Below are positions 2,862 through 44,198 of a stretch of DNA of 64,000 bases, piece by piece. The translations under genes were made by a program, and so were the position numbers. Position 1 is the stretch's first letter. Every line of letters begins with the position of its first letter. The notes below the pieces were generated by a model. The model made no database searches and had not been told where the DNA came from. It worked only from the letters and a program-made list of their open reading frames with translations. The stretch covers positions 1 to 64,000 of IMG/VR virus record IMGVR_UViG_3300036852_000300; one strand, 5' to 3'. Origin of the DNA: a virus.

Positions 2862-4079
2862 GTGGGGTTATCCTGGGTAACGAGATTGAGCCGGGTAACG
2901 GGGGTCCACCAGGTGCCAGCCGTCCAGAACGCCCGCCGTAAGACCGGGCTGAACGTCTTCGACGCGGCCATCGAACGCCTGGTCGATTTGTACCGCCAGG
3001 GGCACCGGCTGGTCGTCAGCATCAGCGGCGGCAAGGATAGTGGGGTCCTGCTGGAGCTGGCGATCATCGCGGCCCGCGAGACCGGCAACCTGCCGGTAGA
3101 CGCGGTCACCCGTGACGAAGAGATCATCTACCCTGGCACGATCGACTACCTGGACCGGTTGGCCGCCAGGACGTCAGAGATCGCCCTGCGCCGCTACCTG
3201 GTCCCCCGTCCCGTGGTCAACGTCTTCAACCGCGCCCAGCCCTACTACTGGCCGTTCGATGATCAGCTTGACCCGGCCGACTGGGTCCGCCGGCCGCCTG
3301 ACGGCGCGATCAGGCTGGCCGTCACCGATCACCCCAGGCTGACGACCCCTGACCGCTTCCCACCCCCGGCCGGCGGACAGACGATCGTCTTGCTGGGTCT
3401 GCGCGTCGCCGAAAGCCGCGCCCGGATGTACGGCTTCTTCAGTAGTGGTGGCATGCTGACCAGGCCCGACGAGAACGGGGTCAGGGCTGCCCGTCCGATC
3501 TACGACTGGTCCGACGGCGACGTCTGGCTGGCCTACAAGGCGAAGGGCTGGGACTACAACACCGCCTACACCGACCTGGCGAGGTTGGGGGTCCCGAGAT
3601 CCAGGCTGCGCGTCGCCCCGCCGGCCATGAACGCCAGTGGCGCCGAACTGCTGAAGGTCGCGGCCGTCGCCTGGCCTGATTGGTTCGCGGCCGCTGCGCG
3701 CCGACTGCCGGGCCTCCGGCAGGGCGCCATGTTCGGCAAGGCCGTGGTGATGCCACGTCGCCGATCGGACGAAAGCTGGGAGGACACGTTCAAGCGGGAA
3801 TGCCTGGGCGACCACGTCCCGTCCTGGATTCGCGAACGGGCGGCCGCCTGGTCGACCAAGATGCTGTCCCACCACGCCCATCACAGCGCCGGCGCCCCCT
3901 TGCCGCAGGTCGTGCCCTGCCACACCTGCGATGGTAACCAGGGAAGCTGGCGCACCTTGACGATCTCGCTGTGGTCCGGCGACCCGACCAGTGTCCACGC
4001 CAGGGGCTTGCCGGAGGTCCCGCCGGAGTTCTTCAGGCCCGGAGCTGGCACCTGGAAAGGGATCAAGGAGCGGTATTGA
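2862..4079 (+). CDS. PAPS reductase-family ATP-pyrophosphatase (IbrA-like)
   Basis: The 405-residue product carries the PP-loop SGGKDS at residues 55-60, the ATP-binding signature of the PAPS reductase/ATP-PPase family, which adenylates or reductively handles sulfur-containing substrates. A C-terminal CHTC motif (353-356) could bind metal or an iron-sulfur centre. Phage members of this family often sit beside a ParB-like gene, as here (4566), the arrangement also seen for E. coli ibrA/ibrB. The first start is GTG 2862; GTG 2913 has the better GGGGG ribosome site and would give 388 residues. The substrate is unknown. Classical assimilatory PAPS reduction is unlikely in a phage; a role in nucleotide, tRNA or DNA modification is only inferred. 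Confidence 0.85.
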   Translation: MGLSWVTRLSRVTGVHQVPAVQNARRKTGLNVFDAAIERLVDLYRQGHRLVVSISGGKDSGVLLELAIIAARETGNLPVDAVTRDEEIIYPGTIDYLDRLAARTSEIALRRYLVPRPVVNVFNRAQPYYWPFDDQLDPADWVRRPPDGAIRLAVTDHPRLTTPDRFPPPAGGQTIVLLGLRVAESRARMYGFFSSGGMLTRPDENGVRAARPIYDWSDGDVWLAYKAKGWDYNTAYTDLARLGVPRSRLRVAPPAMNASGAELLKVAAVAWPDWFAAAARRLPGLRQGAMFGKAVVMPRRRSDESWEDTFKRECLGDHVPSWIRERAAAWSTKMLSHHAHHSAGAPLPQVVPCHTCDGNQGSWRTLTISLWSGDPTSVHARGLPEVPPEFFRPGAGTWKGIKERY

Positions 4080-4387
4080 TGAACGCTGCGCCCCATCTGG
4101 CCGGCCTGCCGCAGTGCGACGTCTACCCCTGCCAGCGGCTGGCCACCCACCTGTACCACGACCTGAACGAGACCGACCCGGTCGCTTCCGGGAAGCTGGT
4201 CCCGGCCCCCGACGGGTCGTACGTGCCGGAGTTGTTTCGCCAATGGGACATCAAGGCGCACCACGCCAGGTGCGAGACCCACCAGGAACCGGCCCGGAGG
4301 TATTACCAGGACGGCCGGGTCTTTGAGACGACCGAACCGGGCGCGCCTGATCGCGAGGTCACATGCCCTGGATCAACCGCGTGTTAG
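4079..4387 (+). CDS. Hypothetical protein, 102 aa
   Basis: The ATG at 4079 overlaps the TGA of the ATP-PPase gene (ATGA), so translation is probably coupled. The product MNAAPHLAGLPQCDVYPCQR... has a Cys/His pattern (C14, C18, then ARCETH further on) compatible with a small metal-binding fold. No family was recognised. It lies between the ATP-PPase and ParB-like genes and may act with them. Confidence 0.7.
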   Translation: MNAAPHLAGLPQCDVYPCQRLATHLYHDLNETDPVASGKLVPAPDGSYVPELFRQWDIKAHHARCETHQEPARRYYQDGRVFETTEPGAPDREVTCPGSTAC

Positions 4388-4584
4388 GACTGCCGGCCGG
4401 CCTGCGTGGCCGCCGCGCCCGGCGCGAGATGCGCCGGGTCCGCCTGGGTATCGACCCTGCCATCGGTCGTGACCGTACCGTCAGGGCCACCGTCTACCCC
4501 CAGACCCCACACGTCGACCCCGGAGCCCCCGAATCCGTGCACGCCGAAGATCCGGTGGAGGGTCTTTGCCCCGACCCATCCTGA
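4363..4584 (+). CDS. Small basic hypothetical protein, 73 aa
   Basis: The ATG at 4363 follows a GAGG ribosome site and overlaps the previous gene by 25 bases. The N-terminal third is Arg-rich (GLRGRRARREMRRVRLG) and the C-terminal half is acidic and Pro-rich. Position and spacing fit the operon, but no domain is visible, so reality rests on context alone. Confidence 0.5.
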   Translation: MPWINRVLGLPAGLRGRRARREMRRVRLGIDPAIGRDRTVRATVYPQTPHVDPGAPESVHAEDPVEGLCPDPS

Positions 4585-5393
4585 CGCGGACCGCCCGGGA
4601 TCGCCGCGCGAAGGCCGTCGTTGCCAAGAAGTTCAACAAGTTGGAGCGGCTGTCGGTCACCTACGTCCCGACGGACGCGATCAAGCCGAACAGCTACAAC
4701 CCGAACCGGCAGTCGCCTGAAGATTTTGAACTGCTGCTCCGGTCGATCGAAGAAGACGGCTTCACCAGCGTCATCACCGTCCAGGAAGGCGTCAACGAGA
4801 TCGTTGACGGTGAGCATCGCTGGCGGGCCGCCCAGGCCCTGGGCCTGACCGAGATCCCGGTCGTCTTTGTCGACATGACCACCGCCCAGCGGATGGTCAG
4901 TACCCTCCGGATGAACCGGGCGCGGGGTAACGAAGACGTCGAATTGTCGGCCCAGGTGCTTCGGGACTTGCAGGCGATCGGCGCCCTGGACCACGCCCAG
5001 GACAGCCTGGCGCTGTCCGACGCGGAGATCAACCTGTTGATCACCAACGTCGCCGCGCCGGAGCTACTGGCCGGCGACGACTTCACCGACGCCTGGGTCC
5101 CGTTCAAGACCGAAGATGACCACGCGATCGACGGGCAAAGCGACACCAGCCTGACCGATCGGGGCGCCCAGGCCCTGCGATCTCGCCAGGCCGCGCTGGC
5201 CAGCGCGGTCACTGAACAGGAACGCCGGCAGGCCCGCGAGGACAACCAGGTCTTCCGGGTCAGCATGGTGTTCGACGGTGATGAAGCTGAGATCGTCCGC
5301 GCCATCCTGGGGCACCGGCCCGCGATCGCCGTCCTGGCGCTGTGCAAGGCGGAGCTGGAACGGCCCCGTCTCGCCACCGACTCACTCACATAG
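4566..5393 (+). CDS. ParB-like nuclease-domain protein (IbrB-like)
   Basis: The 275-residue product has a ParB/sulfiredoxin-type N-terminal domain: the segment VDGEHRWRAA around residues 80-89 matches the conserved ParB box II (GERR/GEHR) that binds the nucleotide. No ParB helix-turn-helix for parS binding is evident after it, so partition is unlikely. The TTG start at 4566 follows GGTGGAGGG and overlaps the previous gene by 19 bases. Together with the 2862 ATP-PPase it forms an IbrA/IbrB-like pair directly upstream of terminase. In this family the pair can act in regulation or nucleic-acid modification; the actual reaction here is unknown. Confidence 0.8.
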   Translation: MPRPILTRTARDRRAKAVVAKKFNKLERLSVTYVPTDAIKPNSYNPNRQSPEDFELLLRSIEEDGFTSVITVQEGVNEIVDGEHRWRAAQALGLTEIPVVFVDMTTAQRMVSTLRMNRARGNEDVELSAQVLRDLQAIGALDHAQDSLALSDAEINLLITNVAAPELLAGDDFTDAWVPFKTEDDHAIDGQSDTSLTDRGAQALRSRQAALASAVTEQERRQAREDNQVFRVSMVFDGDEAEIVRAILGHRPAIAVLALCKAELERPRLATDSLT

Positions 5394-13098: not shown

Positions 13099-14121
13099 AT
13101 GCCAGAGTTCATCTACCCGACGACGACTGAGCTGATCACGATCAACCAGACGCTGCTACCGAACCTGGAGCAATCGAGGGTCCCGTTCGCGCCGGGCGGC
13201 TTCTTCCCGATCCGGACCGTCGACCAGCACTACCTGGAATGGGAGCAGCGGGACAACTTCACCGGTCTCCAGCAGGCCCGGGGCCTGAACGGCAAGCCCA
13301 GCCTGGTCAACCCGATCGGCGGGCAGCGGTTCCAGGTCGAACCGGGGGTCTACGGCGAGTTCATGGTGATTGACGAGCGGGAGCTGACGCTGCGCCGGCC
13401 CTGGGGCCAGTTCAGCGGCCCGATCGACATCTCCGACCTGGTCCGCGAGAAGCAGGACCACCTGTTGCAGCGCCGGCTGGACCGGGTCGAAAAGATCTGC
13501 TGGGACCTGATCATCGACGGCACGTTCAGTGTGCCGGGGCCGAACGGCGCGATCCTGCACGTCGACAGCTTCCCGACCCAGACGTTTGCCGCTGGCATCC
13601 CCTGGGCGACGCTGGCGACGGCGACCCCGCTGGCCGACCTGCGGGCGGTCCAGTTGATGTCGCGAGGCTACAGCGTCAACTTTGGGTCCAGCGCCCGGCT
13701 GTACATCAACCGGACCACGGCGATCAGCCTGCTGGCCAACCGCAACGACGACGACATGGGCGGCCGCAAGATGGACTTCGCGACGATGGGCAACAACCTG
13801 TCGCAGGTCAATCAGTTGCTGTCCCTGGACGACCTGCCCAACTTCGTGATCTACGAGGGTGGGTACCTGGACGACGCTGGCGTCTTCAGCCTGTTCATCC
13901 CGGACGGCAAGGCGATCCTGATCGGCGCCCGCCGGGACGGCGACACCGTCGGCGAGTACCGGATGACCCGGAACGTCAACAACCCGGGCATGGCGCCTGG
14001 CGCCTACACCCGGGTCCTGGACGACCCGGACGAGATCCCGCGCACCGTGATCGTTCACGACGGCCATAACGGGGGGCCAGTGCTGTTCTACGGCAGCGCC
14101 ATCGTGGTGCTGGACGTCTAG
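13099..14121 (+). CDS. Major capsid protein (lambda gpE-like)
   Basis: The 340-residue product has the length and layout of the phage E capsid family: an N-terminal stretch with PGGFFPIRTVDQHYLEWE, a middle IDISDLVREKQDHLLQRRLD helix and a C-terminal beta region ending in LFYGSAIVVLDV. It would form the shell in the HK97 fold. It starts 12 bases after the decoration gene. A very stable hairpin (14133-14183) follows its stop and may boost or limit expression downstream. Confidence 0.9.
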   Translation: MPEFIYPTTTELITINQTLLPNLEQSRVPFAPGGFFPIRTVDQHYLEWEQRDNFTGLQQARGLNGKPSLVNPIGGQRFQVEPGVYGEFMVIDERELTLRRPWGQFSGPIDISDLVREKQDHLLQRRLDRVEKICWDLIIDGTFSVPGPNGAILHVDSFPTQTFAAGIPWATLATATPLADLRAVQLMSRGYSVNFGSSARLYINRTTAISLLANRNDDDMGGRKMDFATMGNNLSQVNQLLSLDDLPNFVIYEGGYLDDAGVFSLFIPDGKAILIGARRDGDTVGEYRMTRNVNNPGMAPGAYTRVLDDPDEIPRTVIVHDGHNGGPVLFYGSAIVVLDV

Positions 14122-14132
14122 CTTCCCTTTCC

Positions 14133-14183
14133 ACCCTGCCCGGCGCGGCGCGCACCCCCCGTGTGGCCGCGTCCGGGCAGGGT
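14133..14183 (+). terminator. Very stable hairpin after the capsid gene
   Basis: ACCCTGCCCGG (14133-14143) pairs with CCGGGCAGGGT (14173-14183). Inside, CGCGGC pairs with GCCGCG with one bulged T between, giving a 17-bp stem with a 16-base loop. There is no T-tract, so it may be a partial terminator, an RNase-processing signal or an mRNA-stabilising end rather than a full stop. Confidence 0.5.
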
Positions 14184-14202
14184 CACGCACCCGGAGGCCA
14201 CG

Positions 14203-14547
14203 ATGGCGAAGCGACAGTACCAGGTCATGGTCGACACCTGGGGGTCGGCACCGGAGTACAAGCGGGGCCGCATCCTCGATCTTGACCTGGACGACGCCGA
14301 AGCGATGCAGGCGTTCCCCTACGACGCCAGACGGGCGCTTGAACGGGGCATCCTGATCGATCTGGACCAGCAGCGCGAGGAGCAGGCGGCCCAGCAGCAG
14401 CGGGTCCAGGAAGCGGCCGAACGCCGCGAGCGCGAGACCACCCCACCGACGGTGCAGCAGACGTCCGGTGGGACGCCCCGGGGTCGAACGTCGGGGTCCG
14501 GCGGGACGTCCCAGTCACAGGAGAGCGGTGATGCCACGTCCAGCTAG
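14203..14547 (+). CDS. Hypothetical head protein with disordered tail, 114 aa
   Basis: The ATG at 14203 follows CCGGAGG and is preferred to an in-frame GTG at 14161 inside the hairpin. The first 60 residues look folded (MAKRQYQVMVDTWGSAPEYK). The rest is a Gln/Glu helix followed by a Gly/Ser/Thr-rich tail that contains GGTSQSQ, coded by a GGGACGTCCC palindrome. The gene is enclosed by two strong hairpins. By position it may be a head completion or packaging-accessory protein. Confidence 0.65.
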   Translation: MAKRQYQVMVDTWGSAPEYKRGRILDLDLDDAEAMQAFPYDARRALERGILIDLDQQREEQAAQQQRVQEAAERRERETTPPTVQQTSGGTPRGRTSGSGGTSQSQESGDATSS

Positions 14548-14548
14548 G

Positions 14549-14586
14549 CCGCCGGGACGTCCCAGCCCCACGGGGCGTCCCGGCGG
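14549..14586 (+). terminator. Strong hairpin, 11-bp arms
   Basis: CCGCCGGGACG (14549-14559) pairs with CGTCCCGGCGG (14576-14586) around a 16-base loop containing CCCC and GGGG. TTCC follows, so a T-tract is nearly absent. The left arm is part of a GGGACGTCCC palindrome (14554-14563). Partial termination or RNA processing is the likely role. Confidence 0.5.
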
Positions 14587-14632
14587 TTCCTGATTCCCTA
14601 CCACCCCCGAGACCCCAAAAGAGGAACCGCCG

Positions 14633-15121
14633 ATGCCCACCAGCGAAGACGACCTCCAAGCGCTGGTCTTGCTGAAGACCGGCGATGTTGACCCGGCCAC
14701 CGGGAAGGCGCCGGATCCGGTCAGCAAGGGCATTGTCTACCGCAACCTGGACCTGCTGTGGGACCAGTGGGCGGCGAAGGATCTGATCGTCGGCGGTCTG
14801 CGCGCGTTGTACGTCGAACGCGACGGCCTGGAGCTGATCATCGCGGTCCTGGGGCCGCGCCGGATTGACGCGGCGAACAGCGCCAGTGGCCTGGACATCA
14901 AGGCGTCCCAGGTCACCGGGATGTATGAGCGGAAGCTGGCCCGGGTCCAGGCCGCGATCAATCGGACCGAAGCGGCCGCCGCGTCGGCCGGGCGGGCCGG
15001 TGGCTACCGGATCGGCAAGCTGCGGAATCAAGCCCCGGTCGTCCCGTCGTCCCCGCCGGACGCCAACGATCCCAGGTACGCCGGCACGCCGTACGTCGGA
15101 CGGGACCCGCGATCGACATGA
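14633..15121 (+). CDS. Putative head-tail connector, 162 aa
   Basis: The ATG at 14633 follows GAGGAA. The product is mostly helical at the N-terminus (DDLQALVLLKTGDVDPATG), with a tail rich in Pro and Ala. It occupies the slot where head completion (connector) proteins lie between capsid and tail genes. No sequence family was recognised, so the role is by position only. It overlaps the next gene by 4 bases. Confidence 0.6.
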   Translation: MPTSEDDLQALVLLKTGDVDPATGKAPDPVSKGIVYRNLDLLWDQWAAKDLIVGGLRALYVERDGLELIIAVLGPRRIDAANSASGLDIKASQVTGMYERKLARVQAAINRTEAAAASAGRAGGYRIGKLRNQAPVVPSSPPDANDPRYAGTPYVGRDPRST

Positions 15122-15561
15122 CGTACGTTGATAAGGGCCTGGCCCAGGGCATCCGCGAGATCTTCGGGATGGCACTGGCCCACACCTACACCCGGACCCC
15201 CCGGACCGCCGGCCCCCGCGACGCCTGGGCGACCACGCCCCAGTCTGACGGCACCCCAGTGACCGGTGTCGCGTGCAGCTACGCCGACCGGGCCAGTGTC
15301 GACGTCAACGACGGCGGCTTCGCCATCCGGAGCAAGCCGCTGCTGCGGGGGTCGGTCGTCCTGCGGGAGACGCTGATGATCGACTGGGACGATCCACTGA
15401 AGGAGGACGACCTGGTCTCTGAGATCCGCGACCAGGATGGCACCCTGTTGCTCGCTGGCCCGGCCGTGGTGGTCGCGGTGCTGGCCCACGCCGGCTTCGG
15501 CCCGACCACCCAGCGGATCGCCGTACTGCGCGGACCGGACGAAGAGGCGGCGCCGGAGTGA
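15118..15561 (+). CDS. Putative head-tail joining protein, 147 aa
   Basis: The ATG overlaps the previous stop. The product is beta-rich in the second half (VVLRETLMIDWDDPLKEDDLVSEIRDQDGTLL), in the style of phage head-closure or stopper proteins that follow the connector. The position before the gp10-like protein, interrupted by a membrane cassette, supports this. No diagnostic motif. Confidence 0.5.
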   Translation: MTYVDKGLAQGIREIFGMALAHTYTRTPRTAGPRDAWATTPQSDGTPVTGVACSYADRASVDVNDGGFAIRSKPLLRGSVVLRETLMIDWDDPLKEDDLVSEIRDQDGTLLLAGPAVVVAVLAHAGFGPTTQRIAVLRGPDEEAAPE

Positions 15562-15573
15562 TCGAGAGGATGG

Positions 15574-15906
15574 GTGGTGGACGGGATCTTCCTGAAGCTG
15601 GTCGAAGTCGGCGGGCTGGCGTTCGCCCTGGCGGCTGTCGGCGTGCTGGCGCTGCTCCGGGGCGACGTCGTCACCAAGAAAAACCACGAAGCGCTGCTGA
15701 AGGCGAAGGACGACCAGATCATCCGCGAGCAGACGACCGCCGCCGACGCGATCAAGCGCGAGCGCGAGGATGCAGCCGCCGCGCTGCTGGCCGAGCGCGA
15801 TCGGACGAACGAGCTGTGGTCGCTGCTCCGGCCGATGATCGGCGTCGCCGGGGCGGTCGTCGATCGTCTCGACCGGGAGCGCCCGACCTACCACGAAAGG
15901 GGCTGA
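15574..15906 (+). CDS. Membrane-anchored coiled-coil protein, 110 aa
   Basis: One N-terminal membrane span (GLAFALAAVGVLALL) is followed by a long charged helix (KAKDDQIIREQTTAADAIKR) likely to form a coiled coil. The GTG at 15577 has better spacing to AGAGGA (15565-15570) than the GTG at 15574. It opens a run of small membrane-linked proteins placed unusually between head and tail genes. Function unknown; spanin-like, holin-like or virion-to-membrane roles are open. Confidence 0.6.
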   Translation: MVDGIFLKLVEVGGLAFALAAVGVLALLRGDVVTKKNHEALLKAKDDQIIREQTTAADAIKREREDAAAALLAERDRTNELWSLLRPMIGVAGAVVDRLDRERPTYHERG

Positions 15907-15907
15907 C

Positions 15908-16138
15908 GTGGACGTGGTCGCCATGATCAGGCAGTGGCTGAGCCCCCAGCCACCCCCGCCACCGCCACCCGGTGGCCCGGACCCGGAGGGGCCGCCGATC
16001 GCTTCGGTGCGTCACGAGATCGGGCCGCCGCCGCCGGCCGAGGATGAGCTGCGCTGGGCGCGCCGCGAGACCGAGCTGATCGTCCGACGCGCCCGCGCCC
16101 TGGACATCGACGTCGACCTGGAGCGATCGATCCGATGA
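15908..16138 (+). CDS. Proline-rich small protein, 76 aa
   Basis: The GTG start at 15908 lies one base after the previous stop. The product begins MDVVAMIRQWLSPQPPPPPPPGG, followed by an acidic/basic helix. It overlaps the next gene by 4 bases. The Pro stretch could be a spacer. No family known to me. Confidence 0.5.
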   Translation: MDVVAMIRQWLSPQPPPPPPPGGPDPEGPPIASVRHEIGPPPPAEDELRWARRETELIVRRARALDIDVDLERSIR

Positions 16139-16545
16139 TCACCTGGGAGTGGGTTGAGCTGATCTGGACCGTCGTGAATACCCTGGGCATCCTGGGTAAT
16201 GTCCGACTGATCGTGGTGGCGTGGCGGAAGCGAGCCGCGTCGCTAGCTGCGGGCCACCAGGTCGGTGGGCCGAGCATCTTGTCGGCCGATCGGTACATCC
16301 GCAACGACGTCGGCCGCCTGCTGTGCCACGCGATCGGCGTCCTGGTCGGGCTGTGGGCGCTGGTGACCCACAACCGCGACTGGCTGCTGACCGTCGTGAC
16401 CGGCTGGGGCGCGGTGCTGATCGTCGCCATCCTGATGGGCCTGGCGATTCTCGACCTGCTGGATGAGATCCGGCTGGATCGCCTGCTGGGCCGTGAGCAA
16501 GAGCAGGGCGGTCGCCGGGGGGGCATGCGTGGCCACGCTCGATAA
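16135..16545 (+). CDS. Multi-span membrane protein, 136 aa
   Basis: Three hydrophobic segments are visible: about 5-28 (WVELIWTVVNTLGILGNVRL), 62-80 (LCHAIGVLVGLWALV) and 88-108 (TVVTGWGAVLIVAILMGLAI), with a basic tail. The ATG overlaps the previous stop. It could be a holin, but the lysozyme and another holin candidate lie 27 kb downstream. A membrane role during infection or in exclusion is possible. Confidence 0.6.
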   Translation: MITWEWVELIWTVVNTLGILGNVRLIVVAWRKRAASLAAGHQVGGPSILSADRYIRNDVGRLLCHAIGVLVGLWALVTHNRDWLLTVVTGWGAVLIVAILMGLAILDLLDEIRLDRLLGREQEQGGRRGGMRGHAR

Positions 16546-17170
16546 CACCAGCGGTCTGGAAGCGCTGCGCCTGTTCGTCGCCTGCTGCGGGGTCGCCGTT
16601 AGTCTCTGGGGCCTGCTGCGGGCCGGCGACGGCAAGTTCGCCTTCGCGTCAGTTATCCGCGACCGCATGATCGCTGATCGCCGGACCGAGATGATCGCCT
16701 TCCTGGCGATCAACCTGGTCCTGGGCTTCCAGACCACGATCGCGGCGGCGACCCCGGACCCGCTGGTGTTGACGCCCGGCGCCCTGGGCGCCAACCTCTC
16801 GCCGCTGGTGACCCTGCTGCTGCTGCTGGGCCTGGCACTTCAGCAGGTTCACCGCTGGACGCACTTTGAAGAGGTCGTCGGCGCCCAGCCACTGAATCCG
16901 ACCGATAGCGAACGGATGACCGAGACGGCCCGGATCGGCCGGCCGATGCTGCACACGCTGGTGAACGACCTGGCGATCTCCGCGTCAGCGATCGAACTGC
17001 TGCTGCGCGCCGACAACCTGACCCCGGAGCAGGCCGCCGACCTGCGGATGATCCTGGAACGGCACACCCTGGCGGCCGGCCAGGTCCACCATCTCCAGCG
17101 GCTGGTCCGGAGCCTGGGCGGCGCTGACGACCTGCCGATGGCGCCACCGGGGGAAGAAGGCACCGCCTGA
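16529..17170 (+). CDS. Membrane protein with DHp-like helical tail, 213 aa
   Basis: The GTG at 16529 is chosen because the frame upstream lies inside the previous gene and GCCGGGGGG precedes it. Three hydrophobic segments (near 11-30, 48-68 and 84-102) are followed by a cytosolic part with HTLVNDLAISASAIELLLR and a second amphipathic helix. This resembles a histidine-kinase dimerisation hairpin without an ATPase domain. That resemblance is weak and by eye. It ends overlapping a 48-codon gene. Confidence 0.55.
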   Translation: MATLDNTSGLEALRLFVACCGVAVSLWGLLRAGDGKFAFASVIRDRMIADRRTEMIAFLAINLVLGFQTTIAAATPDPLVLTPGALGANLSPLVTLLLLLGLALQQVHRWTHFEEVVGAQPLNPTDSERMTETARIGRPMLHTLVNDLAISASAIELLLRADNLTPEQAADLRMILERHTLAAGQVHHLQRLVRSLGGADDLPMAPPGEEGTA

Positions 17171-17316
17171 TGAACGGGCAGATCAGTCATCTCCACACGC
17201 GAATCCGGGGGCTGGGCAGGCCGTTCGACCCGACGCCACCCGCCCCCCAGTCAAGCCTACCGTCGATGGTAGGCAGCGCCCCGAAAACCGCCGATGGCGA
17301 TGGGGGACGCGGATGA
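17170..17316 (+). CDS. Small protein, 48 aa, coupled on both sides
   Basis: The ATG at 17170 overlaps the TGA of the membrane gene and its own TGA (17314-17316) overlaps the ATG of the next gene. The product MNGQISHLHTRIRGLGRPFD continues as a Pro/Ser-rich tail. It contains the near-palindrome CCTACCGTCGATGGTAGG (17256-17273). Coupling on both sides supports a real gene or at least a ribosome-passing leader for 17313. Confidence 0.45.
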   Translation: MNGQISHLHTRIRGLGRPFDPTPPAPQSSLPSMVGSAPKTADGDGGRG

Positions 17317-17720
17317 TCGACACGACGTGCCAGGTGGTCGGATTGGACGCTTTCCGACGACGGGTGCTGTCGCTGGTGCCCCAGGTCGAAGCGGTCGGCG
17401 CGGTAGGGCTGAAGCGCGAGATGGTCGGTGTGCTGGAGGTCTCGCAGCGGCTGTGCCCCGTCGACACGAAGCGCCTGGTCAACTCCGGTCGGGTCGATGA
17501 CCCGGAGATCGGTGGCGGGATCGTCAACGTCTACATCAGCTACGGCGGCGACAACGACGTCCCCTACGCGCTGATCCAACACGAAAGATTGGACTACAAA
17601 CATGCGCAAGGAAAACAGGCGAAGTTCCTTGAGCGTCCATTACTAGAATGGACCAGGGATGGACCTGAAAACCTGATGCGTGGTGTCGCTGGTGTTCTGT
17701 TGCGAAGTTGGGGGCTGTGA
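17313..17720 (+). CDS. Tail completion protein (HK97 gp10-like) with a recoded 3' end
   Basis: The 135-residue product matches the gp10/neck family style: an N-terminal helix, CPVDTKRLVNSG in the middle, and PYALIQHERLDY. From about 17577 to the stop the codons change abruptly to AAA, CAA, AGA, TTA and TTG, and GC falls to about 51 percent by my count. This tail borders a minus-strand HNH gene and was probably brought in with it. The protein probably joins the head connector to the tail. Confidence 0.8.
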   Translation: MIDTTCQVVGLDAFRRRVLSLVPQVEAVGAVGLKREMVGVLEVSQRLCPVDTKRLVNSGRVDDPEIGGGIVNVYISYGGDNDVPYALIQHERLDYKHAQGKQAKFLERPLLEWTRDGPENLMRGVAGVLLRSWGL

Positions 17721-17722
17721 TG

Positions 17723-18352
17723 TCACCCAAGAAGCGGCAGGTATTCCAGCAGTGTTCGGTCCTTCTTTCGGCTGTTGCACGATTGGCAGCAGGGGACCAG
17801 GTTTTCGATCGCGTGATCCCCGCCCCGCGAGACCGGGGTCATGTGATCCATCGTCACCCGGATCAGCGGTCGCAGGCAGTAGGCGCAGCGCCGGTTGAAG
17901 CCGTCGACCTGGGCCTGCCAGTCGGCCACCGTGAACGGGTAGACGGTTGCCCCGCGCACCAGCGCCTGACGCCGACGGTTGCGCTGACGGGTCGGCTCCG
18001 GGTCTGCCAGGTAGTGGGTCAGCCAGCGCGCCCGACTGGCGTCAGGGTTGGCGTGGTAGTAACGGACGTTCTGGGCGCGGACCGCGCCGGGGTTGGCATC
18101 ACGCCAGCGCTGGGTGCGGGTGTTCTCCCGATCGGCGTTCTCGGCCCGCCAGGCGCGTTTCCTGGCCCGCGTGGCGTCGATATCGGCGTGGTATGCCCGC
18201 CGCGCCGACGCAGCACTGATTTGACGGCGTCGTTCGAGGTTGGCCTTGTTCCAGGCCATCGCGCTCGCGACCTTACAGGGCCGGCAGACCTGGCCGGTCG
18301 GGTACGAGTTTTCGGCGGTCGGGTCGGCCCCGCACCGCGAACAGCGCTTCAC
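17723..18352 (-). CDS. HNH homing-type endonuclease, 209 aa
   Basis: An N-terminal zinc knuckle (CSRCG, CRPC) and repeated basic helices (about 40-130) precede an HNH nuclease core: CAYCLRPL, VTMDHMTPVSRGGDH, then LVPCCQSCNSRKKDR, which supplies the catalytic His and zinc Cys. This layout is typical of free-standing phage HNH endonucleases. The GTG start is at 18352. It lies opposite to its neighbours, ending 2 bases after the 17313 gene. Confidence 0.85.
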   Translation of the reverse strand: MKRCSRCGADPTAENSYPTGQVCRPCKVASAMAWNKANLERRRQISAASARRAYHADIDATRARKRAWRAENADRENTRTQRWRDANPGAVRAQNVRYYHANPDASRARWLTHYLADPEPTRQRNRRRQALVRGATVYPFTVADWQAQVDGFNRRCAYCLRPLIRVTMDHMTPVSRGGDHAIENLVPCCQSCNSRKKDRTLLEYLPLLG

Positions 18353-18371
18353 GCCGCAACTCTAGCAGGGA
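17723..18371 (-). mobile_element. HNH endonuclease insertion between tail genes
   Basis: A minus-strand HNH gene splits two plus-strand tail genes. The word GGCTGTGATG, which holds the end of one gene and the start of the next, occurs on both sides (17714-17723 and 18372-18381). The recoded 3' end of the 17313 gene is likely part of the transferred segment. This fits homing with co-conversion of flanking sequence. Confidence 0.65.
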
Positions 18372-18378
18372 GGCTGTG

Positions 18379-18771
18379 ATGCCGGAAGACATCGCGGACC
18401 TGCTGGTCACGGCCGGCCTGGGCACCCTGGGCACGACCCTGGTGATGGGCCGGCTGCCGGAGCAGCCGGACGTCTGCGCGGCGATCGCCGACACCGCCGG
18501 CCGCCCGGCCGCCTGGGTCCACAACGGCGGCGAGCGGCGCTACCCGCATGTCCAGGTCATCGTCCGAGACCGGGACCCCCAGGCCGCCCGGACCCGCGCC
18601 AGAGACATCCGCGACCTGCTGGTAGCGATCCGGGGTGGTGCGATCGCCAGCGTCAACGGCCGGACCTACAAGGCGATCTACGCGATGTCTGAGCCGTTCG
18701 CGATGACCGGTGATTCCAGCGGCCGGAGCTTGGTCGGCTGCAACTACGAATGCTGGATGGGGGTCGACTAG
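18379..18771 (+). CDS. Tail terminator / minor capsid-like protein, 130 aa
   Basis: The ATG at 18379 follows AGGGAGG (18367-18373) and is preferred to GTG 18376. The segment ERRYPHVQVIVRDRDPQAARTRA is characteristic of the phage minor capsid/tail terminator family (lambda U-like position). The protein would cap the tail tube at the head-proximal end. It overlaps the methyltransferase gene by 1 base. Confidence 0.7.
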   Translation: MPEDIADLLVTAGLGTLGTTLVMGRLPEQPDVCAAIADTAGRPAAWVHNGGERRYPHVQVIVRDRDPQAARTRARDIRDLLVAIRGGAIASVNGRTYKAIYAMSEPFAMTGDSSGRSLVGCNYECWMGVD

Positions 18772-19274
18772 TGCACGCGGAAGCGTACGCGTTCGTCGCC
18801 AGCGTCGCTACGGTGCTGGTCGGGGTCAAGACTGCTGTCGAGATCGGCAGCCGCGACATCAACGGGTCGGTCCGCGAGCTATTCCCGGGGACCGCCTACA
18901 CCGGCCTGGACCTTATCCCTGGCCCGGGGGTCAACGTCGTCGCTGACGCTTCCACCTGGCGGCCGCTGGCCCGGGTCGACCTGGTCGTCTGCTGCGAAGT
19001 GCTCGAGCACGCGCGGGCAGCCGCCCTGCTGGTCGAGAACATGATCGCGATGCTGGCCCCGGGCGGCCACCTGATCGTGACCTGCGCGATGCCGCCCCGG
19101 CCCCCGCACTCCGGGATCGACGGCAACCGGCTCCGGCCCAGCGAGTGGTACCTGAACGTCCGCCCCGGCGAGCTTCACGACTGGGTCGACGGGATGGCCA
19201 TCCAGCGCCTGGAGACCCACAAGCAGCGGGGCGACCTGTACCTGTGGGCGACGAAGCCGGGCGGGGGGACGTGA
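18771..19274 (+). CDS. SAM-dependent methyltransferase, class I, 167 aa
   Basis: The motif AVEIGSRDINGS (glycine-rich SAM loop), then GLDLIPGPGVNVVADA (acidic ribose-binding strand end) and DLVVCCEVLEHA identify a class I methyltransferase of the Methyltransf_11/23 type, acting on a small molecule or sugar. The GTG start overlaps the previous stop. It is coupled to the glycosyltransferase that follows, so methylation of a transferred sugar is a reasonable inference. No DNA-methylase motif is present. Confidence 0.8.
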   Translation: MHAEAYAFVASVATVLVGVKTAVEIGSRDINGSVRELFPGTAYTGLDLIPGPGVNVVADASTWRPLARVDLVVCCEVLEHARAAALLVENMIAMLAPGGHLIVTCAMPPRPPHSGIDGNRLRPSEWYLNVRPGELHDWVDGMAIQRLETHKQRGDLYLWATKPGGGT

Positions 19275-20497
19275 TGACCTGGAGAGATGTCGAAGCAGTC
19301 GATATTCGCGCCGCGCAGCGGGGCGCAGCCGAGAGGATCGGGGATCTAGCGGTCGGCACGACGAGCCCGCGCGTCCTGGCGCTGGTCCACCCTGAGATGA
19401 TGGCGGGATGTACCGCCTGGCGGATCGCACAGCCGTTCTCTGAGCTGCACCGGCGGGGCTACCCGGTCGGCTGGTGCGCCGTCGGCGACGCCCGATCGGC
19501 CGACTGGCTTCGAGACGCCGACGCCGTGGTGATGGCGCGCCTGGAATGGGCGCCGGAGCAGGACTGGGTCGCGGATCGCTGGGTTGCGCTGATGCACGGC
19601 CTGGGTACGACCGTCATCTACGAGACCGACGACGACCTGTACAGCGAGGAGAGCATCGACCGGATCCGGGTGACCGGCGACCCGGCCCAGGCGAATAAGC
19701 CCCAGGAGTTGATGGAGCGCGAGCGGCAGGCCAGGATTCTGCCACTGGCGCTCTCGGACGGGGTGACCGTGGCGACCCCCAGGCTGGCTGAGGTCGTCAG
19801 TCGGTTCACCGACAAGCCGGTCATCGTCGTCCCGAACGCGATCGACCTGCCCCGGTTCCGGGCTGGGGTCGAGAAGTACGGCCCGAAGCGGGGCGCCCTG
19901 GACCCGGATCGTCCGCTGACGATCGGCTGGGCCGGCGGTAACCGCCCGGACGAAGACGCCCGTCATCTGGCGGTCGCCTGGACCCGGATCGCCAACCGCT
20001 ACCCCGACGTCCGCTTCCTGGTCGGCGGCTACCCGCTGGGGGTCCTGCTGCGGTCGGTCGACGCCGATCGCCTGACCCTGCGGCCGAAAGAGACGATCGA
20101 ACGGTACCCGGGGCTGATGGCCGAGATCGACATCCTGTGCTGCCCCCTGGAAGCGAACACGTTCAACGCCAGCAAGTCGCCGATCAAGGCGCTGGAAGGG
20201 GCGGCAGCCGGGTCGGCCGTGCTGGCGTCCCCGACCGTCTACCGGCACCTGATCGATCATGGCGAAGATGGGCTGATCTGTACGAACGCCGACGACTGGG
20301 AGGCTTCCCTGTCATGGCTGATCGAGGATCGCGCACGGCGCCGCCACTTCGCCGACCGCCTGTTGCAGAAGGTCGAAAGCCTTCACAGCTTGCAGGCCAA
20401 CGCCCACCGCTGGCCGGCCGCCTGGTCCCACCTGGTGGCCGACTACACGGCCCGTCAGGCCGGCATTCCCACCACGGTCGGAGGTACCGATGGCTGA
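19274..20497 (+). CDS. GT-B-fold glycosyltransferase, 407 aa
   Basis: The C-terminal half carries the GT4-like features TIGWAGGNRPDEDARHL, an IEIDILCCPLE-type strand (EIDILCCPLEANTFNASKSP) and ALEGAAAGSAVLAS, which bind the nucleotide sugar. The N-terminal half has a separate Rossmann-like acceptor domain with YETDDDLYSEES. The ATG at 19274 overlaps the methyltransferase stop. Placed between tail terminator and tail tube genes, it may decorate virion proteins, as described for some mycobacteriophages. Cell-surface targets cannot be excluded. Confidence 0.85.
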   Translation: MTWRDVEAVDIRAAQRGAAERIGDLAVGTTSPRVLALVHPEMMAGCTAWRIAQPFSELHRRGYPVGWCAVGDARSADWLRDADAVVMARLEWAPEQDWVADRWVALMHGLGTTVIYETDDDLYSEESIDRIRVTGDPAQANKPQELMERERQARILPLALSDGVTVATPRLAEVVSRFTDKPVIVVPNAIDLPRFRAGVEKYGPKRGALDPDRPLTIGWAGGNRPDEDARHLAVAWTRIANRYPDVRFLVGGYPLGVLLRSVDADRLTLRPKETIERYPGLMAEIDILCCPLEANTFNASKSPIKALEGAAAGSAVLASPTVYRHLIDHGEDGLICTNADDWEASLSWLIEDRARRRHFADRLLQKVESLHSLQANAHRWPAAWSHLVADYTARQAGIPTTVGGTDG

Positions 20498-20696
20498 TGA
20501 GACCCCAACCCCAACCCCGAAGCCGACCGCCGCCCAGCCCCGGGCGAGCCGGCGGCACGACGGCTATTACGAGAAGCCGTGGGGCAAGCCACCGCACCAG
20601 GTGACCGTCTACCAGTGCGAGAGCTGTCCCTTCGATCACGTCAATGAAGAGATCGTGAGGCAGCACGTTGCCTCGCGCGGGCACGCCGACAGTTAG
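20490..20696 (+). CDS. C2H2-like zinc-finger protein, 68 aa
   Basis: The ATG at 20490 follows CGGAGG and overlaps the glycosyltransferase end by 8 bases. After a Thr/Pro tail, YQCESCPFDHVNEEIVRQHV and a following RGH give a C-x2-C...H-x5-H finger, rare in phages. It might bind nucleic acid or be a small structural knob of the tail. Role unknown. Confidence 0.6.
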   Translation: MADETPTPTPKPTAAQPRASRRHDGYYEKPWGKPPHQVTVYQCESCPFDHVNEEIVRQHVASRGHADS

Positions 20697-20704
20697 GCTG
20701 AACC

Positions 20705-21151
20705 GTGACCGACCTGGCTATCCACGCATTTGGGACGCTGCTGAAGATGGGGGACGGCGAAGACCCGGAGGTCTTCACGAACGTCGCTGAGCTTCGATCG
20801 ATCCCGGTCCCCCAGATCGAGTCGCCCCGGATCGACACGTCGACCCACGACAACCCGGCCTTCTTCCGGTCGTACGTCAACAACCTGAACGACCTGCCGG
20901 CCGTCGGGTTCGACATCAACTACCTGCCGAACCACCCGACCCACAACCACGTGACCGGCCTGCTGCAACGGCAGTTGACCGGCGAACGGACGAATTTCCA
21001 GGTCCACTACAACAGCGCGGTCGTCCCACCGGTGGTGGTCCACTTCTCGGCGACGGTGTCCAGCTTCCGCCCGACCGCCCCGGTCGACAACGTCTACCAG
21101 GCGGCGGTGCAGCTACAGCCGACGTCGGCGCCGACCTACGGGTCGTCGTAA
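20705..21151 (+). CDS. Major tail tube protein
   Basis: The 148-residue product has the usual length and beta-rich composition of siphophage tube proteins (lambda V-like), with PVPQIESPRIDTSTHDN near residue 37 and a strand-rich C-terminus. It directly precedes the chaperone genes and tape measure, the standard position. The GTG at 20705 is the first usable start. Its stop codon lies inside a tandem 18-bp repeat. Confidence 0.8.
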   Translation: MTDLAIHAFGTLLKMGDGEDPEVFTNVAELRSIPVPQIESPRIDTSTHDNPAFFRSYVNNLNDLPAVGFDINYLPNHPTHNHVTGLLQRQLTGERTNFQVHYNSAVVPPVVVHFSATVSSFRPTAPVDNVYQAAVQLQPTSAPTYGSS

Positions 21152-21183
21152 GCCTGACATTCAGGGTAAGCCTGACATTCAGG
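21148..21183 (+). repeat. Two tandem 18-bp repeats at the end of the tube gene
   Basis: GTAAGCCTGACATTCAGG occurs twice in a row (21148-21165 and 21166-21183). Each copy contains the hairpin CCTGA-CAT-TCAGG, and the first supplies the TAA stop of the tail tube gene. Tandem short hairpins here could slow ribosomes or polymerase or protect the 3' end of the abundant tube message. Confidence 0.75.
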
Positions 21184-21219
21184 CAGCCGATCCCGATCGA
21201 TCTCCGGGCACGACGTCTC

Positions 21220-21260
21220 AAGGAGCGGCCGGCGGCCGTCCCGCCGGCCCAGCCACGATG
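21220..21260 (+). promoter_or_regulatory. Ribosome site separated from its start by a hairpin
   Basis: AAGGAG (21220-21225) lies 32 bases before the ATG at 21258, too far to work unaided. Between them GGCCGGCGG (21227-21235) and CCGCCGGCC (21241-21249) form a 9-bp stem with a 5-base loop. Folding leaves an effective gap of about 9 bases. Confidence 0.6.
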
Positions 21261-21764
21261 GAAGAGACCACCCGCGACAACGCCAGTCCGATCACGCAGG
21301 CGATCGAGAGCATCAAGGTCGAGGAGCAGGCGGCGGCCGCTGCGGCGGCCGCGACCCCGGTGGCGCCGAAACCGGCCCTGGTCGCCGAACCGCTGAACCA
21401 CCGCAAGCCCAGGCTGATCGAGCCGGTGCCGATCGAGCTTGACAAGACCCGCCACCTGCGGCTGCCGTTCTGGGCGCTGAAGATGTTCGAGGAGCGGACC
21501 GGGATCAACGCCTGGGATGAGAAGATCATCTTCGACTGGCCACCCAAGCTGGCCGTGATCACGACCCTGCTGTGGGTCGCCCTGCTGGACGAAGACGACA
21601 CGCTGACGCTGGATCAGGTCGAGCGGATGCCTGGGCTGGAGTTCGGGAACATCTACTACATCCTGCACTGCCTGGACCTGTGCTGGGGCCGTAACCAGCC
21701 GCCGGCCGACCCGGCCACAGCTTCCGCGACCGGAGGTGGCGGCCCAAACGCCAGCGCCGCGTAG
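21258..21764 (+). CDS. Tail assembly chaperone G-like, 168 aa
   Basis: The product has a disordered Ala-rich start, then HLRLPFWALKMFEERTGINAWDEK and a helical end, in the style of lambda gpG chaperones that coat the tape measure. The ATG at 21258 is reached through a hairpin-bridged ribosome site. Near its end the heptamer CCCAAAC (21743-21749) is in the X-XXY-YYZ register for a -1 frameshift into the next frame. Confidence 0.75.
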   Translation: MEETTRDNASPITQAIESIKVEEQAAAAAAAATPVAPKPALVAEPLNHRKPRLIEPVPIELDKTRHLRLPFWALKMFEERTGINAWDEKIIFDWPPKLAVITTLLWVALLDEDDTLTLDQVERMPGLEFGNIYYILHCLDLCWGRNQPPADPATASATGGGGPNASAA

Positions 21765-22156
21765 TGCGGTGGATCGACCTGTGGACGGTCGGGATCGTGG
21801 ACCTGGGCCTTTCTGAAGCCCGGTTCTGGGACCTGACCCCACGGGAGTTCCGCGCGCTCGCGGATCGTCGGCTTGAGCTGGAACGGGCCGAAGACCTGCG
21901 CTTCGGCGAGCTAGCGACCCTGGTGGCGTCATTGGGCGGTGCCAAGAAGTCGAACGGCCTGCCCTTCGGCCCGGCCGACTTCTTCCCCAGCCTGGCCGTC
22001 CCCCGGTTCTTCGATCCGACCGTCCAGGTGGCGGATCGGCCGGACAACCTGGTCGACCTGCCGAAGCGGCCGGGCCAGAACGCCGTGGAAGACGGGTGGG
22101 ACCGCTGGGTCGAGATGTGTCGGATGGCTGATCAGCACCGGGCGAGGGCGAGATAG
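21258..22156 (+). CDS. Predicted G-GT frameshift fusion, about 299 aa
   Basis: Zero-frame codons GGC CCA AAC place the slippery heptamer C-CCA-AAC at 21743-21749. A -1 shift there reads CGC CAG CGC CGC GTA GTG and enters the 21764 frame with no stop, joining the G-like and T-like parts. Lambda and most siphophages make GT this way to control tape measure assembly. The fraction of ribosomes shifting cannot be read from sequence. Confidence 0.7.
21764..22156 (+). CDS. Tail chaperone T-like part, 130 aa
   Basis: The frame begins at GTG 21764, which overlaps the TAG of the G-like gene, and has WDLTPREFRAL, typical of the second tail chaperone part. It may be made mainly as a frameshift fusion (21258-22156) rather than from its own GTG. 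The helical C-terminus contacts tube protein in lambda. Confidence 0.65.
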   Translation: MRWIDLWTVGIVDLGLSEARFWDLTPREFRALADRRLELERAEDLRFGELATLVASLGGAKKSNGLPFGPADFFPSLAVPRFFDPTVQVADRPDNLVDLPKRPGQNAVEDGWDRWVEMCRMADQHRARAR

Positions 22157-31114: not shown

Positions 31115-31464
31115 TGGCCGCCGGGGTGCTGAACATCTACGTCGAGCAGGGGGCGACCTGGCAGCGTCAGGTCGCCTGGACCCAGGAGAACGGCGATCCG
31201 ATCAACATCGTCGGGTACAGCGCCCGGATGATGATCCGCGAGCGGTACCGATCGGACGAACCGATCGTCTCGCTGGACAGCGACCCTGGCGGCGGGATCG
31301 TCATCACCGCCCCGAACCTGCTGGACATCACCATGACGGCCGCCCAGACGGCGCTGATCGACTTCGGTGCCGGGGTCTACGACCTGGAGCTTGTCGCACC
31401 TGACGGCAGGGTCATCCGGCTGCTGCAAGGCACGGCTGAGATCGGCCCGGAGGCGACGAAATGA
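31114..31464 (+). CDS. Fibre-base beta-sandwich protein, 116 aa
   Basis: The product begins [18 protein letters not shown] and ends [20 protein letters not shown], a pattern I know from small proteins encoded next to phage fibre genes and probably an Ig-like or upper-baseplate fold. It is coupled to the collagen-like fibre gene by a 4-base overlap and may anchor that fibre to the tip. Confidence 0.65.
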
Positions 31465-34400: not shown

Positions 34401-35891
34401 TCAGCCGGTACCCACACGGTGCTGGTCCGGGCCGTCGCCCACGGCAGCACGGCGATGTACTTCCGCCCCGGCACCCGCCCAGGCGAAGAGTTCCTGCGCA
34501 TCCAGATCACGGAGTTCCTGACGTCAGCGTCGGACTGGACCTGGCGCGGCGCCTGGGGGTCGGGGACGGCCTACAACGCCAACGATGCCGTCACCGACGA
34601 CGGGTCAACCTGGCTTGCGCTGCTAGCGGGGACCAACCAGCCGCCGGCGTCCAGCCCGTCCTACTGGCAGCAGGTGGCGGCCAGGGGATCGCCGGGGGCG
34701 CCGGTCCAGCGGTTGGCCTACAACCAGCCCACCGATCTCCATAACGGGACCCCGTTCGGGTCTGGCCCCCAGAACATCACATCTGACTTCAACTTTACCG
34801 TTAGTGGTCCACAAAGTCTCGTCAAGCTCGCGGTGGCGACCGGGATGCAGTGGGCGAACACGGGGGCGCTTCAGGGGGCCGCTGTCAACCTGCTGCTCGA
34901 TGGAACGTCGCGGCACCCGATCGAAGCGGCCTACACGTCGACAAATATGCAGACGATCAACCTGTCAGCCGCCGGCGACGTCTGGGTCAGTGGTCTCGCC
35001 GCCGGTACCCACACCGTTCGGGTCCAGGTCTACTTCACCGTCGGCAGCAACACGATCTACCTCCGGCCGACCACGATTGCGACCGAGTATCTCCGTCTCG
35101 ACGTGATCGAGTACCAGACGTCGGTCTCGACCTGGACCTGGCGCGGGGCCTGGTCGGCCGCGACCGCCTACGTCACGAACGACACCGTCACCTACGATGG
35201 GTCGACCTACCTGGCCCTACAGAACGGCACCAATCAGAATCCAGCCACCCAGATCGCCTACTGGCAGGTGGTCGCGTCAAAGGGCGATCCGGGCGACATG
35301 ACCAACCCGATGACGACGCCCGACGACATCATCGTCGGTGGCGTGGCCGGGGCGCCGGGCCGGCTGGCGAAGGGGGCCAATTCGCGGGCCTTCGGGGTCA
35401 ACAGCGCCGGCGTGCTGGGCTACCACCAGGTCGAACGGGCCGAGATCGCGCCGAATGCTGTCGTGCAGTCACGGCTGGGCTTCCAACTGCTGACCGACGT
35501 CTTCAGCGGTACGGTCACCACCACCGGCAGTTTCTACAACATCATGGCCGATCAGGCGTTCACGGTTGAGTCGGCTAGCAGCGTCATCGGATTCGCCGTC
35601 ACTGGCGCGATGGTCGTCCAGGGGTCGGTCAATCACGGTGCGATGGTTCAACTGCTGGTCGACAACGCCATCGCCGTGCAGGTCGGCGCCGATTACATCC
35701 AGACGGCCGGCAGCAACGGCAACCCGTTCTCCGGCAGTGGGACGATCTACCTGAGCGGCCTGAGTGTCGGTGCCCATGTCGTCCGGCTGCGCGTCTTCAT
35801 CATGAGCGGGACCCCGACGATTTACCTCCGGGCGGTGTCGGTCGTCTCCGAGTTCTGCCGGCTGTACGTCGTTGAGCACAAGTCGAGCTAG
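31461..35891 (+). CDS. Collagen-like tail fibre with glycan-binding modules, 1,476 aa
   Basis: After a 47-residue head, residues 48-478 are Gly-X-Y triplets with interruptions of the form (A/L)-(D/P)-STVPGP. Five copies of a CBM5/12-like module follow (WRGAWxxxTxYxxxDxVxxxGSxY...), near 479, 537, 620, 1020 and 1220, alternating with short collagen pieces and beta-sandwich domains ([20 protein letters not shown]). Such fibres bind surface polysaccharides and trimerise through the collagen part. It is the main receptor-binding candidate. Confidence 0.85.
31602..32894 (+). repeat. Collagen-like Gly-X-Y coding repeat
   Basis: About 430 codons of GGN-NNN-NNN with frequent CCCCAGGG and GGTCCCCAG blocks. 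Pro and Gln dominate the X and Y places. The block creates long false open frames on the minus strand. Slippage or recombination here could vary fibre length. Confidence 0.9.
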
Positions 35892-42864: not shown

Positions 42865-44198
42865 CACCAGCCCCGACCGTGGCAAGCGTGACCTACAACC
42901 CGTGGGTACCACTGCAACAGCAGGACGCTGACTACGACTGTAGCCAGGAGTCCGACGAGTACATGCTGCGCGGCTGGGGTCGCACGCCCAGCGATGCCTG
43001 GATGACCCGGAGCTGGATCGATGAGGGGGTGATGACGCCCCAGTACGGCCTGATGGACGCCAGCGGGGCCGGCATGGCGGCCTGGAACAACGAGTATTAC
43101 GGCATGGACGGGCTGTTCTCCGAGAACTTCCCGAGCGTGACGTTCAACGACTTGATCGACAAGGTCGGGTCGGCCGACCAGGGGGTCTGCGCCGGCGGCC
43201 GAAACTTCTACCACTGGGTCGGGATCCGGGCCTACGATCCCCCGACCGACGCACTGGTGCTGCACAACTCCGCCAACGGCTACATGGGGGTCTACCAGAC
43301 GCTGTCTCGATCCCAGTTCGGCGCACTAGGACCGTGGAGCGCGGTCACGCTTCGCTGGGATCACGCGGCGCCGCCCCAGACGACCTGGCAGACCGGGATC
43401 GACGTCAGCAGCCACCAACCGGACGTCGACTGGGATCAGGTCGCAGCCGCCGGCCACCGGTTCGCGATCGTCAAGGCGACCGAATCGATCGACTACCTGA
43501 ACCCGGAGTTTGCCCGTGACTGGGCCGAGATCCCCCGGGTCGGGATGAAGCGGGGGGCCTACCACTTCGCCCGGCCGGACCTGACCGATGGGGCGGACGC
43601 CGAAGCCAGCTACTTCTGTCAGCAAGTGCTGGCACAGGGGCCACTGGTCGCGGGCGACCTGCTGGTGCTGGATCTGGAGCGGGGGAATGGTGATCTGTCC
43701 GCCTGGTCCAGGGCGTTCGCTGACCGGGTGCAGCTTCTGACCGGACTGTTGCCGATGATCTACACCGGCGGTCCGTTCGCTACTGAGCACGGTCTGGCGA
43801 ACGATCTGAGCCTGGGCAGTCTCGGGCTCTGGATCGCCAACTACCGTGAACCGCCGCCACCATCGGCACCGGCGCCCTGGTCGACCATCCAGATCTGGCA
43901 GGACAGCGCAACGGCGAGCGTGCCGGGAGTGGGGGGTGACTGCGACCACAACAACGCGCTGGTCGACATCGAGACGATCGTTGCCGAGTTCGGCTACGAA
44001 GGGAGCGGACCTGTGACTGACACAGCACCGAGCTACGAAAGCCTTCAGACCTTGTGCGGCGTCGCCTACAACGCTGACGGGTCGGTCCGACTGGGCCTGG
44101 AAGGCGCGAAGGCCCAGACCGACGTTGAGTCGATGCGCCAGGAGATCCAGAACGTCATCAACTTCCTGGCCGCGAACAACCCGAACCCTGGCGGCTGA
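42849..44198 (+). CDS. Endolysin: C39-like domain plus GH25 lysozyme, 449 aa
   Basis: Residues 15-175 form a C39-like domain (Cys31 in DYDCSQES, His122 in FYHWVGIRAY, HNSANG). Residues 180-390 form a GH25 muramidase with TGIDVSSHQPDVDW (Asp185), VKATES, GAYHF and LVLDLE (Asp275 and Glu277 as catalytic pair). A helical C-terminus follows. The ATG at 42849 has GGGAG upstream. It cuts glycan strands of peptidoglycan at lysis; no signal peptide is visible, so it needs the holin. Confidence 0.88.
   Translation: MSVAVAPAPTVASVTYNPWVPLQQQDADYDCSQESDEYMLRGWGRTPSDAWMTRSWIDEGVMTPQYGLMDASGAGMAAWNNEYYGMDGLFSENFPSVTFNDLIDKVGSADQGVCAGGRNFYHWVGIRAYDPPTDALVLHNSANGYMGVYQTLSRSQFGALGPWSAVTLRWDHAAPPQTTWQTGIDVSSHQPDVDWDQVAAAGHRFAIVKATESIDYLNPEFARDWAEIPRVGMKRGAYHFARPDLTDGADAEASYFCQQVLAQGPLVAGDLLVLDLERGNGDLSAWSRAFADRVQLLTGLLPMIYTGGPFATEHGLANDLSLGSLGLWIANYREPPPPSAPAPWSTIQIWQDSATASVPGVGGDCDHNNALVDIETIVAEFGYEGSGPVTDTAPSYESLQTLCGVAYNADGSVRLGLEGAKAQTDVESMRQEIQNVINFLAANNPNPGG

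Follow-up and report, generated by a model that had tools for sequence, protein, structure and literature searches.

A four-gene accessory block of small membrane proteins among the connector genes of a phage, with a possible holin-like role

A real accessory membrane block of four genes, three of which encode small membrane proteins, lies between a head-closure-position gene and a neck-like gene in the late region of a phage genome. The explanation that fits best, by analogy and at a probability of about 40%, is that these genes, here termed A to D, encode holin-like membrane proteins that are late and accessory and whose genes stand apart from the endolysin gene. This function is proposed from build and setting rather than from homology. 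The original prediction had described five coupled small genes as an unassigned membrane cassette and had proposed a virion or infection-stage membrane system; the observation is partly confirmed, and the interpretation is partly supported.

The window, i.e., the whole stretch of DNA analysed here, comprises bases 1–64000 of an 86,416-base virus record. The last 127 bases of this record repeat its first 127, which makes it probable that the genome is complete. The order of the late genes is large terminase, portal, head maturation protease, a presumed decoration gene, major capsid protein, connector genes, tail terminator, methyltransferase, glycosyltransferase, major tail protein, tape measure, collagen-repeat fibre, and GH25 endolysin, where the tape measure and the decoration gene are assigned by position and size. 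The upstream neighbour of the cassette (15118..15561, plus strand) occupies the head-closure position and has homologues in the relatives L008 and L024/L027, and the downstream neighbour (17313..17720, plus strand) is a neck or tail-completion-like gene with a weak match to phrog_5 (E 0.0025) and homologues in L093, L061, L079, and L080; the connector names of these two genes and of the gene at 14633 come from position and weak profiles. The cassette does break the connector gene order, as had been claimed: the neck-like gene stands directly after it, and the tail terminator (18379..18771, plus strand; PF12691, E 1.3e-12) is found further downstream. The DNA of 14000–21900 has no match in a collection of 50,697 phage records; for the capsid protein, there are matches at 29% identity in two Microcystis phage records.

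Gene A (15577..15906, plus strand) encodes 109 amino acids, or 110 if read from the GTG at 15574, and is followed by gene B (15908..16138, plus strand) for a Pro-rich protein of 76 amino acids, gene C (16135..16545, plus strand) for one of 136 amino acids, and gene D (16529..17170, plus strand) for one of 213 amino acids. Their codon scores (0.48, 0.22, 0.33, and 0.40 per codon, respectively) all lie inside the range of 117 pieces of 48 codons cut from the remaining genes in the window (mean 0.37, 5–95% range 0.13–0.56), and a simple gene caller, a short codon log-odds script of our own rather than a trained program, selects exactly these four genes in the cassette. A starts 12–15 bases past the upstream stop codon, the gap between A and B is 1 base, B and C overlap by 4 bases (ATGA), and C and D by 17 bases. 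Such tight packing suggests that A–D are co-expressed with the structural genes, presumably late in infection. In agreement with the holin-like reading, a sigma-70 type scan found no promoter-like or forward terminator-like site in 14500–21500.

Two details of the earlier gene list had to be revised. First, D had been started at 16463, but the stretch from there has coding character in the frame of C and not in that of D; thus, D probably starts at the GTG at 16529, 66 bases further on and preceded by a G-rich run, and consists of 213 rather than 235 amino acids. The codon scores used for this start and those of the 48-codon pieces refer to different backgrounds. Second, although A–D are coding and tightly packed as proposed, the fifth member, ORF E (17170..17316, plus strand; 48 codons), scores –0.07 per codon, unlike the genes of this phage: none of the 117 genuine pieces is as low, and none of 234 wrong-frame pieces of the plus strand is as high. 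This ORF is probably a spacer of 142 bases rather than a gene. An RNA element in these 142 bases was also considered and rejected, as their predicted fold is not unusual (z –0.54).

The span counts of the original prediction were borne out. By Kyte–Doolittle hydrophobicity, computed with a short script of our own and not with a trained program, one span is predicted in A, none in the Pro-rich B, and three each in C and D, and the charge rule would place A, C, and D all in an N-out/C-in orientation. The single span of A is N-terminal and is followed by basic residues and a predicted helical cytoplasmic domain with 41% KRHDE; the C-terminal tail of C contains 48% KRHDE; and D continues behind its spans into a cytoplasmic helical hairpin. 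At a looser hydrophobicity threshold, a segment above the limit is found in 13 of the 130 genes called in the window and the relative L109, some of them clearly soluble proteins, and in three of the four consecutive genes of the cassette. The structure model of C has three long helices (mean pLDDT 67), with no match in PDB at E ≤ 10 and none among viral models at E ≤ 0.001. The single-sequence model of D has a mean pLDDT of 58, with residues 1–90 below 50, and its hairpin is composed of two long helices (model residues 127–159 and 166–201) at a pLDDT of about 76–79.

This hairpin is the tail that had been likened to a kinase-dimerisation domain. A role of D in membrane signalling, with the tail acting as the dimerisation domain of a histidine kinase, would draw on the predicted hairpin itself, on an H..L...L pattern visible by eye, and on the CheA phosphotransferase domain (1tqg, Z 8.6), which is 1 of 50 VIA rows for D. 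These rows are generic helical bundles with a designed helical protein as the best one (Z 11.5), and all lie below the caution level of about Z 13 and point to no function; no histidine-kinase DHp domain is among them. Moreover, the HisKA profile finds nothing in the record at E ≤ 10, whereas it matches in all 14 control genomes, Pfam detects no HATPase or other ATPase domain in D, and Foldseek returns no match for the D model at E ≤ 0.001. The signalling role is therefore highly improbable, and of the kinase-like tail only a predicted helical hairpin is left. A hit of the D tail to Enzyme I in PDB (phmmer, E 0.031) is not credible.

None of A–D has a credible family match in Pfam, PHROGs, NCBIfam, or PADLOC, and the lack of any holin or lysis profile match for A, C, and D speaks, at the level of sequence, against the holin-like reading. 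The best PADLOC matches of the cassette (E 0.017 and 0.027) are not credible. A weakly matches phrog_4511 (E 8.1e-5), a profile without assigned function; it was dropped as a functional clue since it also matches in 6 of the 14 control genomes, and the match of A may reflect just the composition of a span plus a coil. D reaches DUF7071 at E 0.018, under the cut-off of this family, and has no further Pfam match, and its hit to phrog_38233 (tail fibre; E 0.063) is at chance level. In searches against phages, A, B, and D gave no match and C gave E of about 4 at best, and D had no match in plasmids. A, C, D, and the gene at 15118 as single queries found nothing in viral contigs, and no match appeared for C in 5 genomes or for D in 291 genomes of one phylum, where an empty answer is uninformative.

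Capsid-aligned scans gave 21 and 80 loci in viral contigs and 7 in genomes, with 80 unique by capsid end. None of A–D is encoded in 105 loci (tblastn, E ≤ 0.01), D occurs in 1 of 49 whole records, namely that of the window itself, and the closest relatives have no such block. In 55 of the 80 unique loci, the sequence continues for 3 kb or more past the capsid gene; these were counted, and 7 of them have at least one small membrane gene in the stretch from the capsid gene to the first long gene. A 62-aa hydrophobic ORF of L005 at this place is under the threshold of this count, and the gene of L027 stands 6.3 kb downstream, beyond the presumed tail-tube genes. Judged by tail genes, the nearest relative is L093 (major tail protein 49% identical); it has in succession a homologue of the adaptor gene, a 46-aa hydrophobic ORF, a 120-aa gene, and the neck homologue, with no A–D; its small ORF (L093:4722-4862) overlaps the adaptor gene by 4 bases. 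L008 carries a 96-aa one-span coil gene behind its connector genes, while L024 has no small hydrophobic gene ahead of its tail genes. More small hydrophobic ORFs were seen in L005, L056, L089, and L106. Since the nearest relatives lack the cassette at this position, it is, from the sequences compared, an accessory insertion, bigger than any in the relatives, and it occupies a site at which small hydrophobic genes are found now and then. This absence, together with the lack of credible family matches, upholds the claim that A–D are not an ordinary connector set.

The same survey bears on a virion or DNA-entry component, in which the membrane proteins would be packaged and then inserted into the next host. 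The position amid structural genes would suit this role. However, no credible structural-protein profile matches A–D, and a three-span gene is present in the stretch from the capsid gene to the first long gene in 0 of the 55 capsid-sharing loci, indicating that such a gene is not needed for this head type. A packaged component is thus very unlikely.

The original prediction had noted that the lysis genes lie elsewhere, and a GH25 endolysin gene is indeed encoded at 42888..44198 (plus strand; PF01183, E 4.7e-38; start from the gene caller), about 27 kb downstream of the cassette. Nevertheless, a lysis function should not have been set aside on this ground, because in this clade a holin-like gene can be located among connector genes and the lysis region of a relative has the same kinds of parts. 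The endolysin gene is adjoined by P0001 (44204..44509, plus strand), which encodes 101 amino acids with one span and a charged helix. The connector-region protein of L008 (L008:6679-6969; E 1.1e-11, 32% identity over 74 residues) is its sole relative in 50 records, so that the same kind of gene adjoins the endolysin gene in one phage and the connector genes in another. The lysis region L116:95-2742, from the record of the relative L063 (capsid 51.6% identical), consists of a 115-aa multi-span gene, a 149-aa one-span coil gene, a GH25 endolysin gene, a 105-aa gene, and a gene for a Holin_LLH protein (PF09682, E 2.2e-14). By analogy, the composition of the cassette is like this row minus the endolysin, with a one-span coil protein and multi-span proteins. 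Both the P0001 homologue among the L008 connector genes and the L116 row argue for the holin-like reading. On the other side, A has no detectable homology to P0001, the L008 protein, or the L116 coil protein, and C has none to the L116 multi-span protein, which confines the likeness to build and setting. It also counts against this reading that the endolysin already has a one-span neighbour in P0001 and that the cassette is not beside the endolysin.

The anatomy of A resembles that of LysF1b of the mycobacteriophages Girr and NormanBulbieJr, which is described as a 124-aa protein with one N-terminal span, an N-out/C-in topology, and a charged helical cytoplasmic part; its gene overlaps a two-span gene by ATGA and is needed for efficient lysis, its deletion leading to lysis defects (PMC13056207). 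LysF1b-like proteins are given there as 92–150 amino acids long with 30–50% DEKRH and minimal sequence identity (PMC13056207). Judged by this description, A is similar in its 109 amino acids, in its one N-terminal span in a predicted N-out/C-in orientation, in the basic residues after the span, in its 41% charged helical cytoplasmic part, and in being packed with multi-span genes. It differs in standing 27 kb from the endolysin gene and in having three-span rather than two- or four-span neighbours, and it is not filed as a LysF1b-like member since it lies outside a lysis cassette with the endolysin. DUF2746 (PF10874), the family named for LysF1b on the basis of HHpred (PMC13056207), has no match in the record by HMMER at E ≤ 10, which may be a further point against the holin-like reading at the sequence level; the published LysF1b match came from HHpred.

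Type I holins such as lambda S105 and P2 Y are described as having three spans with the N-terminus out and the C-terminus in (PMC9671378), and C shares with them, as predicted, three spans, this topology, and a charged C-terminal tail. This layout of C and the LysF1b-like anatomy of A may be counted in favour of holin-like proteins. C differs in its 136 amino acids, its want of a profile match, and its distance from the endolysin, and it is not filed as a type I holin because it matches no described holin family in Pfam, PHROGs, or NCBIfam. D departs from this class through its long helical tail, and the 109 residues of its cytoplasmic part, unusual for a holin, weigh against the reading. Also in favour of the reading, several holin-like genes in one phage have been described: three consecutive ones are reported for Gordonia phages, and one-span and multi-span holin-like proteins act together in SPP1 (gp24.1/gp26) and PBSX (XhlA/XhlB) according to a published account (PMC6316719). 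The cassette likewise pairs a one-span protein with multi-span proteins, whereas in SPP1 and PBSX the span of the one-span protein is C-terminal and the genes stand before the endolysin gene or on either side of it. A two-component spanin formed by A and B, of the Rz/Rz1 kind with an N-in/C-out i-spanin and a lipoprotein as o-spanin, was rejected, as A is predicted to be N-out/C-in and B has no cysteine.

The number of spans would suit superinfection exclusion equally well. P22 SieA is described as an inner-membrane protein of 162–164 amino acids that has three predicted spans and blocks DNA injection, and HK97 gp15 as a predicted inner-membrane exclusion protein and the product of a moron (PMC10883804). 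C and D, three-span membrane proteins by prediction and compared here with SieA as described, might act like SieA or gp15 and, together with A and B, keep the DNA of related phages out of the host, and an accessory insertion missing in the nearest relatives is moron-like. Exclusion therefore stays the main rival, although it is on the whole unlikely. It may count against it that the cassette has no own promoter-like site in the scan, which was of sigma-70 type only, and that the record contains no tyrosine or serine integrase match; neither PHROGs, Pfam, nor PADLOC gives a credible link, and three spans alone are unspecific. The packing in a presumed late operon also means that A–D would likely be made after the time at which exclusion matters most. 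Exclusion and DNA entry were both named in the original prediction, and nothing specific in the data points to either.

Another late envelope role, be it in assembly on the membrane, in modification of the envelope with nearby enzymes, or in a membrane change unconnected with lysis, is somewhat less probable still. Proteins without a family match leave room for other functions, and a SAM-methyltransferase and a glycosyltransferase gene are encoded nearby (18771-20497). However, both enzymes are separated from the cassette by the neck, HNH, and terminator genes, and no transport or flippase profile matches A–D. The enzyme pair follows the tail terminator and precedes the tail-tube genes, is missing there in L093, and possibly serves in virion glycosylation.

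If the preferred holin-like reading holds, A–D would be made with the virion proteins, their genes standing amid connector genes, and would act at the end of infection with the endolysin encoded 27 kb downstream. C, with its three spans and charged tail, would oligomerise in the host inner membrane; D would act as another three-span subunit, with its cytoplasmic hairpin serving for pairing or restraint; A, as a LysF1b-like partner, would time the action of C and D; and B may be a small soluble or peripheral adaptor. A bolder form of this scheme, which is rather doubtful, is a split lysis system in which A, C, and D, perhaps with B, form a holin-type complex in the connector operon with timing tied to connector synthesis, while the endolysin and the other one-span protein are encoded 27 kb away, and in which A–D belong to families without described members. 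Were A–D holin-like, lysis parts would not need to cluster with the endolysin gene, which is the usual guide of annotators to them, and four orphan families would become testable candidates; were they an exclusion system, a membrane exclusion set would be embedded in an assembly operon. Either way, the connector region of this phage clade is marked as an insertion place for accessory genes.

Several other features of the window were recorded. A minus-strand HNH endonuclease gene adjoins the neck gene (17313-18352), and the last 54 codons of the latter have a GC3 of 0.63 and 0.44, against 0.82–0.93 before; this low-GC3 end and the endonuclease gene are perhaps one exchanged tract. Two likely adsorption proteins are encoded, one of 1476 amino acids with collagen repeats and CBM5/12 modules (31461-35891) and one of 731 amino acids with F5/8 type C domains (38716-40911). 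Ahead of the terminase genes stand a PAPS-reductase-like gene and a ParB_N gene (2913-5393), a pair that can be part of DNA modification. Finally, a capsid gene 43% identical to that of the phage was found inside a long bacterial contig (L105, a 1.05-Mb contig titled as an Armatimonadetes MAG), so that related phages may exist there as prophages.
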